DNA of 64,000 nucleotides from Chloroflexota bacterium (GTDB taxonomy: Bacteria; Chloroflexota; UBA11872; VXOZ01), in assembly GCA_022824225.1 (NCBI GenBank), contig JAJEAH010000005.1, positions 1 to 64,000 on the forward strand. Reading direction: 5' to 3'. The notes under the pieces were generated by a model. It was not told the DNA's origin. It searched no databases and was given only the letters and a program-made list of their open reading frames with translations. How positions within the stretch are numbered: position 1 is the first letter of the stretch; the number at the start of each line of letters is the position of its first letter. The translations under genes were made by a program, and so were the position numbers. Shown in pieces: positions 268 to 63,439 of this stretch.

Positions 268-1377
268 ATGGTTACGTACGACGACCTGAAGATCGGCACG
301 TTCATCAACGCCAGCGGCACCATCACGACGCTGGGGGGCAGCATCATGCCCGCGCCGGTGGTGGCGGCTATGGAGCGCGCCTCCCACGCGTTCGTGGACC
401 TCAACGAACTGCACGAAAAGGCCGGCGGCAAGCTGGCGGAGATGATCGGCGTGCCGGCGGCGTTCATCGCGTGCGGCGCGGCCAGCGGCATGCAACTGGC
501 GGCGGCCGCGTGCCTGACGGGCACAGACATTGGGCGCATCCGCGGCCTGCCGCAGGTGCCGAGCGGCACAAACGAATTTGTCATCAGCTACGTGGACGAG
601 CATACGTACATCCACCAGGGCATCGAGATCGTTGGCGGCAAGCTGGCCCCGGCGGGGACTAAGGAGCAAGTCACGTCCGACGACCTCATCGGCGCGATCA
701 CGGAGCGCACGGCGGCGGTGGTGCACTTCCTCGGCAAGCAGACCAGGCAACAGTTGATCGAGGTAGTCGCCGGAGCGCATGAGCGCGGCGTACCGGTGAT
801 GGTGGACGCGGCGGCGCAACTCCCGCCCCGGTCCAATCTCACGGAAATCGTCGGACTGGGGGCCGATCTCGTGGTCTTCAGCGGCGGCAAGGGCATCCGC
901 GGCCCGCAAGCCACCGGCATGGTGCTGGGGCAACCGGACCTAGTGGAGGCGGCGCGGCTGAACGGCAGTCCGCAGAGCGCGGTGGGACGCGGCATGAAGG
1001 TGGGCAAGGAAGAGATCATGGGCCTGCTGACCGCAGTGGAACTCTATCTGGCCCAGGACGAAGCCGCGGAACTGGACGGCTGGGAAGCGGAGATGCGCGC
1101 GGTGGCGGCTGCCGCCGACGGCATCGAGGGAGTCACCGGAGAGGTGCTGCGCCAAGATTCCGGCGCAAGCTGGGACATCGTGCCCCACGCCCAGATCAGC
1201 TTTGTGGCCGGCGGCAGTATGGACGCCGCACAGGTCATCCGCGCCCTGCGCCAGGGCGAACCCGCCATAGACGTGCGCCCAAACCCGGCCGGCATTCTCA
1301 TCAGCCCCATGACCCTGCAGCCCGGCGAAGCGGAAATTGTCGCCGACCGCCTCCGCGCGGTGTTGCAGGCTGAGTGA
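268..1377 (+). CDS. SelA/DgaE-like PLP-dependent enzyme (aminotransferase fold type I)
   Basis: This 369-aa protein belongs to the PLP-dependent family that includes bacterial selenocysteine synthase SelA and D-glucosaminate-6-phosphate ammonia-lyase. The predicted Schiff-base lysine is K208 in the run FSGGKGIRGPQ, followed by TGMVLG. D180 in VMVDAAAQ would hold the pyridine nitrogen. The N-terminal INASGTITTLGGSIM segment is typical of the family. It is shorter than classical SelA (about 450 aa), so a lyase or aminotransferase acting on an amino sugar or amino acid is more likely than Sec synthesis. The ATG is preceded by GAGGAG at good spacing. It stands alone between repeat-rich gaps. The exact substrate cannot be read from sequence. 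Confidence 0.8.
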   Translation: MVTYDDLKIGTFINASGTITTLGGSIMPAPVVAAMERASHAFVDLNELHEKAGGKLAEMIGVPAAFIACGAASGMQLAAAACLTGTDIGRIRGLPQVPSGTNEFVISYVDEHTYIHQGIEIVGGKLAPAGTKEQVTSDDLIGAITERTAAVVHFLGKQTRQQLIEVVAGAHERGVPVMVDAAAQLPPRSNLTEIVGLGADLVVFSGGKGIRGPQATGMVLGQPDLVEAARLNGSPQSAVGRGMKVGKEEIMGLLTAVELYLAQDEAAELDGWEAEMRAVAAAADGIEGVTGEVLRQDSGASWDIVPHAQISFVAGGSMDAAQVIRALRQGEPAIDVRPNPAGILISPMTLQPGEAEIVADRLRAVLQAE

Positions 1378-3069: not shown

Positions 3070-3657
3070 GTCATGCTCCTCGCAAGGCAGAAGGTAGTTT
3101 CCGTACAGTATAGCGCACGGCCCTGGCGTCGCCGTCTGCGCCCGCGCCGTACTGCGCTGAGCCGGTACCGTTCGCACTGAGCCAGTACCGTTCGCACTGA
3201 GCCAGTCGAAGTGCGCGCACACGGGCAAGGGCCAATCCGTTCGCACTGAGCTTGTCGAAGTGCGGGCACGCGGGCAAGGCCCAATCCGTTCGCGCTGAGC
3301 TTGTCGAAGCGCAGGCAGTCTAGCGTCGCCGTTTGTTTTCACTGGCTGAACTAAACAAAGGACCATTTGCTCCTGCTTGTCGGGTTATTCCCCACGAGAT
3401 GTTGTGTCTCCCAGCTTGTTTTTAGAGACCAGGAGAACGGCGCCTACCGTGTGAGACTGGAACGTGCGTTGTTCTGCTCCACCCATGCGCTTCGACAAGC
3501 TCAGCGCGAACGGAATAGGTGCACTTCGACAGGCTCAGTGTGAACGGAAGTGGGCGTTGGCTTGGTTGCGCTGCGGGTACGTTCGGGGTGCTCTACCGGA
3601 TGTTTGGGGCGCGCTGCAGCTACATTTGAGGCGCAGTGCCGGTGTGTCGCTTGGGCC
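3070..3657. repeat. Cluster of R2 intergenic repeats
   Basis: This gap holds several tandem or near-tandem copies of the TTCGCACTGAGCTTGTCGAAG element (around 3151-3215, 3237-3265, 3285-3312) and two in opposite orientation (3486-3510, 3526-3548). No gene is supported. The copies alternate orientation, so parts could form long hairpins between the two divergent-end genes. Confidence 0.7.
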
Positions 3658-4143
3658 TCATTCTTGCCGCAACGCGGCCACAAGCGCATTCCGCTTGGGC
3701 AGTCCGCCGTCGATACGATAGCTCTCTTGGCCCAGCCCGTCATAGACGACGAAACTGGGCACCAATTGCAGGCCGGCGCGTTCGGCGAACGAGAGTCCGA
3801 CCGGCGTGTGCCGGTCCAGCCGAACGACCCGCGCCGCCGCGCCAAATTCCTCCTCTATCCCATCGACGATGGGACGGGCCGCCAGGCAGCCCCCTCAGTA
3901 GTTCGAGAACACGGCGACCAGCACCGGCAGACCCGCTCCGATCAGTTCATCCGGCCCGGCGGCGTCGGGCAGGACCGACGCACGAGTGCGCAAGCGCACC
4001 GCCACGAGCACGAGGACGCCCCCTACCAGCGCCACCAACGCGATCCCAGCGGGCAGCGGCAGCCAAAGGAACGCGATGGCGGCACAAAGCAACAGCACGA
4101 AGAGCGAAACGAATACGTATGAATACTGGTTGAGGAATTGCAT
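3658..4143 (-). CDS. Membrane-anchored thioredoxin-like selenoprotein (U-G-G-C active site)
   Basis: Reading through one in-frame TGA (3895-3897) gives a 161-aa protein with Sec at residue 83. Two hydrophobic segments (about residues 9-28 and 31-49) anchor it. A thioredoxin-like domain follows: strand PVLVAVFSNY, then U83-G84-G85-C86, helix (LAARPIVDGIEEEF), strand RVVRLD, and the cis-Pro loop LVPSFVVYDG with P129. The thioredoxin signature therefore spans the TGA, and the TGA sits exactly at the first active-site Cys position. A 7-bp hairpin begins 20 nt after the TGA. The gene lies 92 nt downstream of the peptide-transporter ATPase gene and may be the last gene of that operon. The ATG has only a weak ribosome site (AAGAGAG adjacent). 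Alternatives are a TGC-to-TGA mutation or sequencing error. No Sec machinery gene is in the window. Confidence 0.75.
3858..3874 (-). promoter_or_regulatory. Candidate bacterial SECIS hairpin
   Basis: In the minus-strand mRNA the sequence UCCCAUC-GUC-GAUGGGA forms a perfect 7-bp stem with a 3-nt loop. Twenty nucleotides separate the UGA from the stem and 27 separate it from the loop. The loop starts with G. These values fit published bacterial SECIS models (short stem inside the coding region, G in the first loop positions, roughly 16-37 nt from the UGA). A second, closer hairpin (GGGCUGC-CUG-GCGGCCC) begins 2 nt after the UGA and could compete or stack. Confidence 0.6.
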
Positions 4144-62746: not shown

Positions 62747-63439
62747 ATGGCGCGAGCAAAAGGCAAGAGACGCAAAGGGCAGAATCGCAAGACACAGAAT
62801 CGCCGGTCCATGGCGCGCGCGTGGCGCAAGTGGGTGATTCCGGCGGTGGTGGCGCTGTTCATCCTGGCCCTGGTTGTGCCGACGGTCTTGCCGGGCATCA
62901 TCGGATCGCCGCAGCCGGCTGAAAGCGAGGGCGCGCTGCCGACGGAGGACACGGGTGAATCCCAACAACCCGCGGGCCTGGCAGCCGGCGCGGCCGCCCC
63001 CGGCTTCTCGCTAGAGGATACGGAAGGCGAGACGGTGAGCTTAGAGTCGCTGGCGGGCAAGCCGGTCGTCATCGCGTTCTTCGCGCCGTGGTGTCCCCAC
63101 TGCCAGGACGAGGCGCCGCGCCTCAACGAAATCCACGCTCAGTACGGCGACCGCGTCCACGTCGTTTCCATCAGCGCGACGCCGTACGGCAAAGACTACT
63201 CCGCCCAGAACCAGGACCGGATCACACTGGAAGACATCACGTGGTTCCAGGAAGAGTTCCAGGTTACCTATCCGCTGCTCTTCGACCCGGCCGTGGCGGT
63301 TGGCGTCGCTTACAATATCGGCTCGTTCCCCACAACTTACTTTCTCAATGCGCAGCACCGCGTCGTGGAGGTTTTCGTGGGCGGGAGATCGGTAGCCGAG
63401 TTCCAGCGGGTGCTGGACGGGATTCTCGACGCGCAATGA
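62747..63439 (+). CDS. Membrane-anchored TlpA-like thioredoxin
   Basis: A 230-aa protein with a basic N-terminus (KGKRRKGQNRK), a membrane helix (about residues 29-50), a disordered linker and a thioredoxin domain. The active site C116-P-H-C119 lies in AFFAPWCPHCQDEAP, and a cis-Pro lies in GSFPTTYFLN. It probably reduces or oxidises exported proteins or acts in cytochrome maturation. It keeps Cys where the protein at 3658 has TGA. Confidence 0.9.
   Translation: MARAKGKRRKGQNRKTQNRRSMARAWRKWVIPAVVALFILALVVPTVLPGIIGSPQPAESEGALPTEDTGESQQPAGLAAGAAAPGFSLEDTEGETVSLESLAGKPVVIAFFAPWCPHCQDEAPRLNEIHAQYGDRVHVVSISATPYGKDYSAQNQDRITLEDITWFQEEFQVTYPLLFDPAVAVGVAYNIGSFPTTYFLNAQHRVVEVFVGGRSVAEFQRVLDGILDAQ

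Follow-up and report, generated by a model that had tools for sequence, protein, structure and literature searches.

Does the in-frame TGA at positions 3895-3897 of the window, the whole stretch of 64,000 nucleotides of Chloroflexota DNA analysed here, end a protein, or does it specify the selenocysteine (Sec) of a thioredoxin? A standard ORF call on the window gene ends at 3895 (137 aa), so that automatic annotation would halt at the TGA and split the gene, as the original prediction had anticipated. With the TGA at 3897-3895 read as Sec, the predicted product is a complete selenoprotein of 161 residues, MQFLNQYSYVFVSLFVLLLCAAIAFLWLPLPAGIALVALVGGVLVLVAVRLRTRASVLPDAAGPDELIGAGLPVLVAVFSNY-U-GGCLAARPIVDGIEEEFGAAARVVRLDRHTPVGLSFAERAGLQLVPSFVVYDGLGQESYRIDGGLPKRNALVAALRQE, encoded on the minus strand at 3658-4143 with an ATG start at 4143-4141, a last sense codon at 3661 and a stop TGA at 3660-3658, and with an N-terminus that agrees with those of homologues; the extent had been given correctly before, the strand had been left out and is now assigned as minus. 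The in-frame TGA falls on the first active-site position, where Sec83 would be residue 1 of a UGGC motif (the same codon across congeners), followed by Cys86 (3886-3888, minus strand), the presumed resolving cysteine that is replaced by Ser in seven Sec-containing relatives, and by Pro129 of the cis-Pro loop (3757-3759, minus strand), invariant across the family in 40 aligned sequences; both the U83-G-G-C86 motif and P129 lie where they had been predicted. We regard it as almost certain, judging from sequence, that the gene product is a membrane-anchored thioredoxin with Sec as its attacking residue, the UGA being decoded via SelB, tRNA-Sec and a bSECIS element. In the 3' flank of the gene (3160-3560 of the window) a short interspersed repeat, GTTCGCACTGAGC..TTGTCGAAG, occurs several times, also as its reverse complement.

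Were the TGA a nonsense mutation or a miscalled TGC/TGT Cys codon, the gene would be a pseudogene or the product of a sequencing error, as might be supposed from a standard ORF call that stops there and from the existence of Cys homologues, but the identical TGA recurs in many separate genomes. The gene is found, with TGA always at this codon, in six of six genomes of the genus (its own and five congeners), which are every genome covered for the family and the order as well, and two Longilinea MAGs (Anaerolineae) have PY-U-LAC at the equivalent place in proteins 32-35% identical to that of the window. Because relatives sharing this TGA were assembled independently, sequencing error, and with it a TGC/TGT miscall at 3895-3897, is excluded. 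From 400 genomes of the phylum, together with the genus and Longilinea, we extracted 56 genes, with U..C at the motif in 38, U..S in 7, U..U in 1 and C..C in 10; leaving aside two remote matches (G355 and G252) and one frameshifted copy, the core family numbers 53 genes, 43 with TGA at the site and 10 with Cys, and seven U/C changes fall on the tree. An in-frame UGA thus occupies the column in which homologues have Cys (43 genes with U, 10 with C), the pattern asked of a bacterial selenoprotein, and the residue that replaces it is Cys, never Trp. Among 40 aligned members no position is invariant other than 83 (Sec/Cys) and P129. Homology had been claimed on both sides of the TGA, and homologues do run past it, some with Cys at the site; a pattern of homologues ending at the TGA was looked for and is not seen among them, and full-length Cys versions exist. 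The observation exceeds chance, since 43 genes share the TGA, an open frame before and after it, and the hairpin described below.

Four of the five other genomes of the genus carry a tandem pair of gene copies or remnants of one: a UAGC copy with a UASS or UAKS copy in G001, G002 and G003, and a UAGC copy with a frameshifted UARS copy in G005. This last copy (L021 2277-2738) runs in two frames after residue 110, reflecting either a pseudogene or an assembly error. The two remote matches are thioredoxin-like proteins with lipoprotein-like N-termini, one (G355, L100 2034-2522) with an in-frame TGA (UTTC) and without the family hairpin, the other (G252, L101 2008-2367) with two in-frame TGA codons (UAPU). 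Weak matches in the same class (families f2 and f5) are ordinary CGPC or CGPC-like thioredoxins and were rejected.

In all eight related pairs of Sec genes dN is lower than dS on either side of the TGA; for the G001/G002 pair the values downstream are 0.033 (dN) and 0.285 (dS), and the UASS pair from the same two genomes has too few downstream differences to inform. Purifying selection acts on the post-TGA part, and dN below dS there argues that this part is most likely translated in frame. Such selection past the TGA, together with a hairpin confined to TGA genes, leaves a pseudogene or an error with next to no probability. Equally improbable, in our estimate, is that the UGA is a real terminator, giving a short two-helix membrane protein with the thioredoxin part translated separately or not at all; although the standard ORF call does yield a truncated product, truncation would cost the protein its active site, of which the residues past the UGA are conserved, the Cys versions are full length and the hairpin sits exactly where SelB requires it.

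This hairpin, which the original prediction had placed at a SECIS-like distance, is a candidate bSECIS at 3859-3873 (minus strand), CCCAUC-GUC-GAUGGG. With columns numbered straight from the TGA (nt 1-3), without gaps and without fitting to any structure, nt 25-39 pair into a 6-bp stem closed by a loop of 3 nt, and this apical loop, with its GU, occupies 3867-3865 at a distance of 27 nt from the UGA; in other genes the same columns read CCCGUCGUGGACGGG, CCUGUCGUGGACAGG, CCGGCCGUGCGCCGG and CCCUUCGUCGAAGGG. Published criteria for a bSECIS are a loop of 3-9 nt, a stem of 4-16 bp, a spacing of 16-37 nt, an MFE <= -7.5 and a G within the first two loop positions (PMC13188914 section 5), and the window element, with loop GUC, 6 bp, a spacing of 27 nt and -10.9 kcal/mol (nt 16-45), falls within all of them, bearing out the predicted distance. 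Calling the family hairpin by at least four stem pairs and a GU in the loop, we find it in 43/43 U genes and 0/10 Cys genes on the tree (Fisher 5e-11); phylogenetically independent contrasts of hairpin against Sec agree in 5/5 cases, a number of pairs that cannot reach p < 0.05. Columns 28 and 36 are paired in 45/45 U genes (G355 omitted), as A-U in 23, G-C in 21 and U-A in 1, a degree of pairing never matched when codons for the same amino acid were permuted (0/5000), and the type of pair requires nine changes on the tree. Over the stem as a whole U genes have 5.28 pairs of 6, compared with 3.62 +/- 0.13 under synonymous-codon resampling (0/2000), and Cys genes 2.10 compared with 2.35. As judged from these columns, stem pairing is preserved via compensatory changes. 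One Cys-form gene (G052, L061 1489-1971, CLVC) keeps 5/6 stem pairs with a loop of CTG instead of GTN, possibly a relic of a lost SECIS. The Rfam model SECIS_1 (RF00031) finds no match in the window's own genome, which is uninformative because the model is also silent in the control genomes, E. coli included.

Any recoding of UGA would leave the frame open, including a code change (UGA = Trp, for example) or leaky readthrough that does not involve Sec. The window gene itself, however, terminates in TGA, as do many of its relatives, homologues without the UGA have Cys there and never Trp, and a complete Sec machinery is in place alongside the SECIS-type hairpin, so that we consider recoding without Sec very improbable, if marginally less so than the alternatives above. 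The genes selA, selB, selC and selD, the set expected with a bacterial selenoprotein gene and proposed as a check by the original prediction, are all detected in the own genome: SelB at 374.7 bits (cut-off 242), tRNA-Sec at 67 bits (called by ARAGORN as tRNA-SeC, anticodon TCA), SelA at 573 bits on contig C49 and SelD at 365 bits (G000:C86:23017-23946, L102). SelD has an in-frame TGA of its own in CAG-U-AGK, the known Sec site of Sec-containing SelD, from which it appears very probable that this genome uses UGA for Sec in other places as well. The conserved frame, UGA and hairpin and the presence of this machinery are direct results of computation. A SelA-like PLP-dependent enzyme in the window (268-1377, plus strand; PF03841, 34 bits) is only distantly paralogous; the genuine SelA is the one on C49.

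The SelB C-terminal wing domain is found in 45/49 family-bearing genomes vs 314/400 in the phylum (Fisher p = 0.02). We rejected co-occurrence with SelB as stand-alone proof of Sec; SelB is common in the phylum, being present already in those 314 genomes, and its co-occurrence is for this reason weak evidence by itself. Among the four family-bearing genomes without the wing domain G376 has tRNA-Sec, and G001, G384 and G232, Sec-form genomes that are 69%, 92% and 86% complete, have neither detectable SelB nor tRNA-Sec, absences that may be assembly gaps.

Two membrane helices followed by a thioredoxin domain had been proposed for the protein, and the AlphaFold model predicts just this arrangement, with helices at residues 3-27 and 30-55 (3979-4137, minus strand), as also predicted from hydropathy, and a thioredoxin-fold domain at residues 64-161 (3661-3954, minus strand) with block-mean pLDDT values of 72-90 over residues 61-160. 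The best PDB matches of the model are thioredoxins (Foldseek, 4.4e-8), and the residues after the TGA resemble thioredoxins in a phmmer search (6.7e-7). Pfam PF00085 matches the post-TGA part with an E value of 7.5e-5 and a score of 23.1, vs a gathering cut-off of 23.5, and is matched by 33/40 relatives at E <= 0.001. The thioredoxin equivalog TIGR01068 gives the window protein 25.7 bits, below its cut-off of 96.8, profile searches with the AhpC-TSA/Redoxin and DsbE models return no match to it, and NCBIfam has no fitting model, the protein meeting generic thioredoxin models only, far under cut-off. Fold, redox motif and cis-Pro, the marks of the thioredoxin superfamily, are all present in the window protein.

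Membrane orientation can be read from the positive-inside rule. Two-helix members average 1.87 Lys/Arg in the inter-helix loop vs 0.35 before helix 1 (higher in the loop in 29/46, lower in 5/46), and in one-helix members Lys/Arg precede the helix, a pattern which by this rule places the thioredoxin domain of the family probably outside the cytoplasm. In the window protein the inter-helix loop is uncharged and three Lys/Arg follow helix 2, where the rule is ambiguous, and for the window genus the charge pattern gives no clear membrane side.

The gene is preceded on its own strand by genes for two oligopeptide/dipeptide ABC ATPases and a further two for permeases, and downstream is an NAD-dependent epimerase-type gene. 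The gene does follow a peptide-transporter operon, as originally described, but a functional link to the transporter finds no support, the arrangement being common to G005 only: the same ATPase lies upstream there and was not seen in the flanks read of the other congeners. The usual neighbours in Anaerolineae are an EF-G-like GTPase (divergent, and named by eye from sequence), a methyltransferase and an 'LFLFLDGxGLG' protein, the GTPase and the methyltransferase commonly enclosing the gene. Because neighbours differ in this way among congeners and Anaerolineae, we take the link to be local and reject it as a general rule. The copies in G050 and G161 directly adjoin an ordinary thioredoxin gene.

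In the chemistry of thioredoxins the residue corresponding to 83 attacks a substrate disulfide, and the mixed bond is then resolved by that corresponding to 86; as residue 83, Sec is a stronger nucleophile and a better leaving group. At codon 83 the bSECIS hairpin would direct SelB and tRNA-Sec to decode the UGA, and the second UGA (codon 162) would terminate translation. The Sec83 selenolate would then attack a partner disulfide or other oxidised thiol to give a selenylsulfide, to be resolved by Cys86 (UxxC). We infer insertion of Sec in the cell, as we do the redox direction, the partner, the substrate and the location of the domain. In the UxxS sister copies the resolving thiol would come from the partner or from a small thiol, a monoselenol mechanism. 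Some copies from the genus, as well as from families f29 and f60, have Ser at 86 and retain Sec, no CxxS form is found among the 56 extracted genes and position 86 requires at least three changes on the tree. More tentatively, and in our view less likely than not, these proteins may represent a phylum-wide family of thioredoxins, tethered to the membrane and probably exoplasmic, that has Sec more often than Cys and has lost the resolving Cys in more than one lineage with Sec kept (UxxS), and the tandem UxxC/UxxS copies of the genus may constitute a two-step selenol relay.

Sec thioredoxins (UxxC, PF00085) are catalogued as experimentally verified (PMC13188914 Table 1), and the claim that such proteins are rarely reported applies to the membrane-anchored Sec family and not to Sec thioredoxins as such. 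With the Sec-containing bacterial thioredoxin the window protein shares the thioredoxin fold, UxxC, the cis-Pro and Sec at the attacking position; it differs in its N-terminal membrane hairpin, in having UxxS relatives and in its scores of 23.1 and 25.7 for PF00085 and TIGR01068, under the cut-offs given above. Membrane-anchored oxidoreductases of the TlpA/ResA/DsbE type likewise have an anchored, probably exoplasmic thioredoxin-fold domain, but TlpA-type proteins are AhpC-TSA/Redoxin with CxxC, whereas the family described here stands closer to classical thioredoxin and is anchored by two helices; an AhpC-TSA/Redoxin gene of TlpA type is located in the window at 62747-63439. TsoB (a rhodanese/DsbD fusion-like selenoprotein, NF045694) and the DsbD C-terminal domain show weak thioredoxin-domain profile similarity to 14/40 members (best 9e-8), and neither is matched by the window protein itself. 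Sec glutaredoxins (U/CxxC/S) accept Ser as the fourth residue of the motif when Sec is the first (PMC13188914), as do the UxxS relatives of the window protein, and no glutaredoxin family is among the matches of the 40 members. The 2026 selenoproteome catalogue (PMC13188914) has no entry naming a membrane-anchored thioredoxin or a UxxS thioredoxin, and the word 'Chloroflex' is absent from it; in the open-licence literature on selenoproteins of Chloroflexota/Anaerolineae no title or abstract describes a membrane-anchored Sec-thioredoxin family. What appears to be new is a family of membrane-anchored thioredoxins that mostly use Sec, with tandem UxxC/UxxS copies among them in which Sec is kept and the resolving Cys lost.

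Because a literal reading of the stop codon truncates the gene just before its active site, a redox family present across many Chloroflexota lineages will probably be missed or called broken. The natural switches between Sec and Cys, seven on the tree, with gain or loss of the hairpin alongside, make the use of selenium in a thioredoxin directly testable, and the UxxS forms suggest that the conserved functional element of the family is selenium and not the classic dithiol pair.
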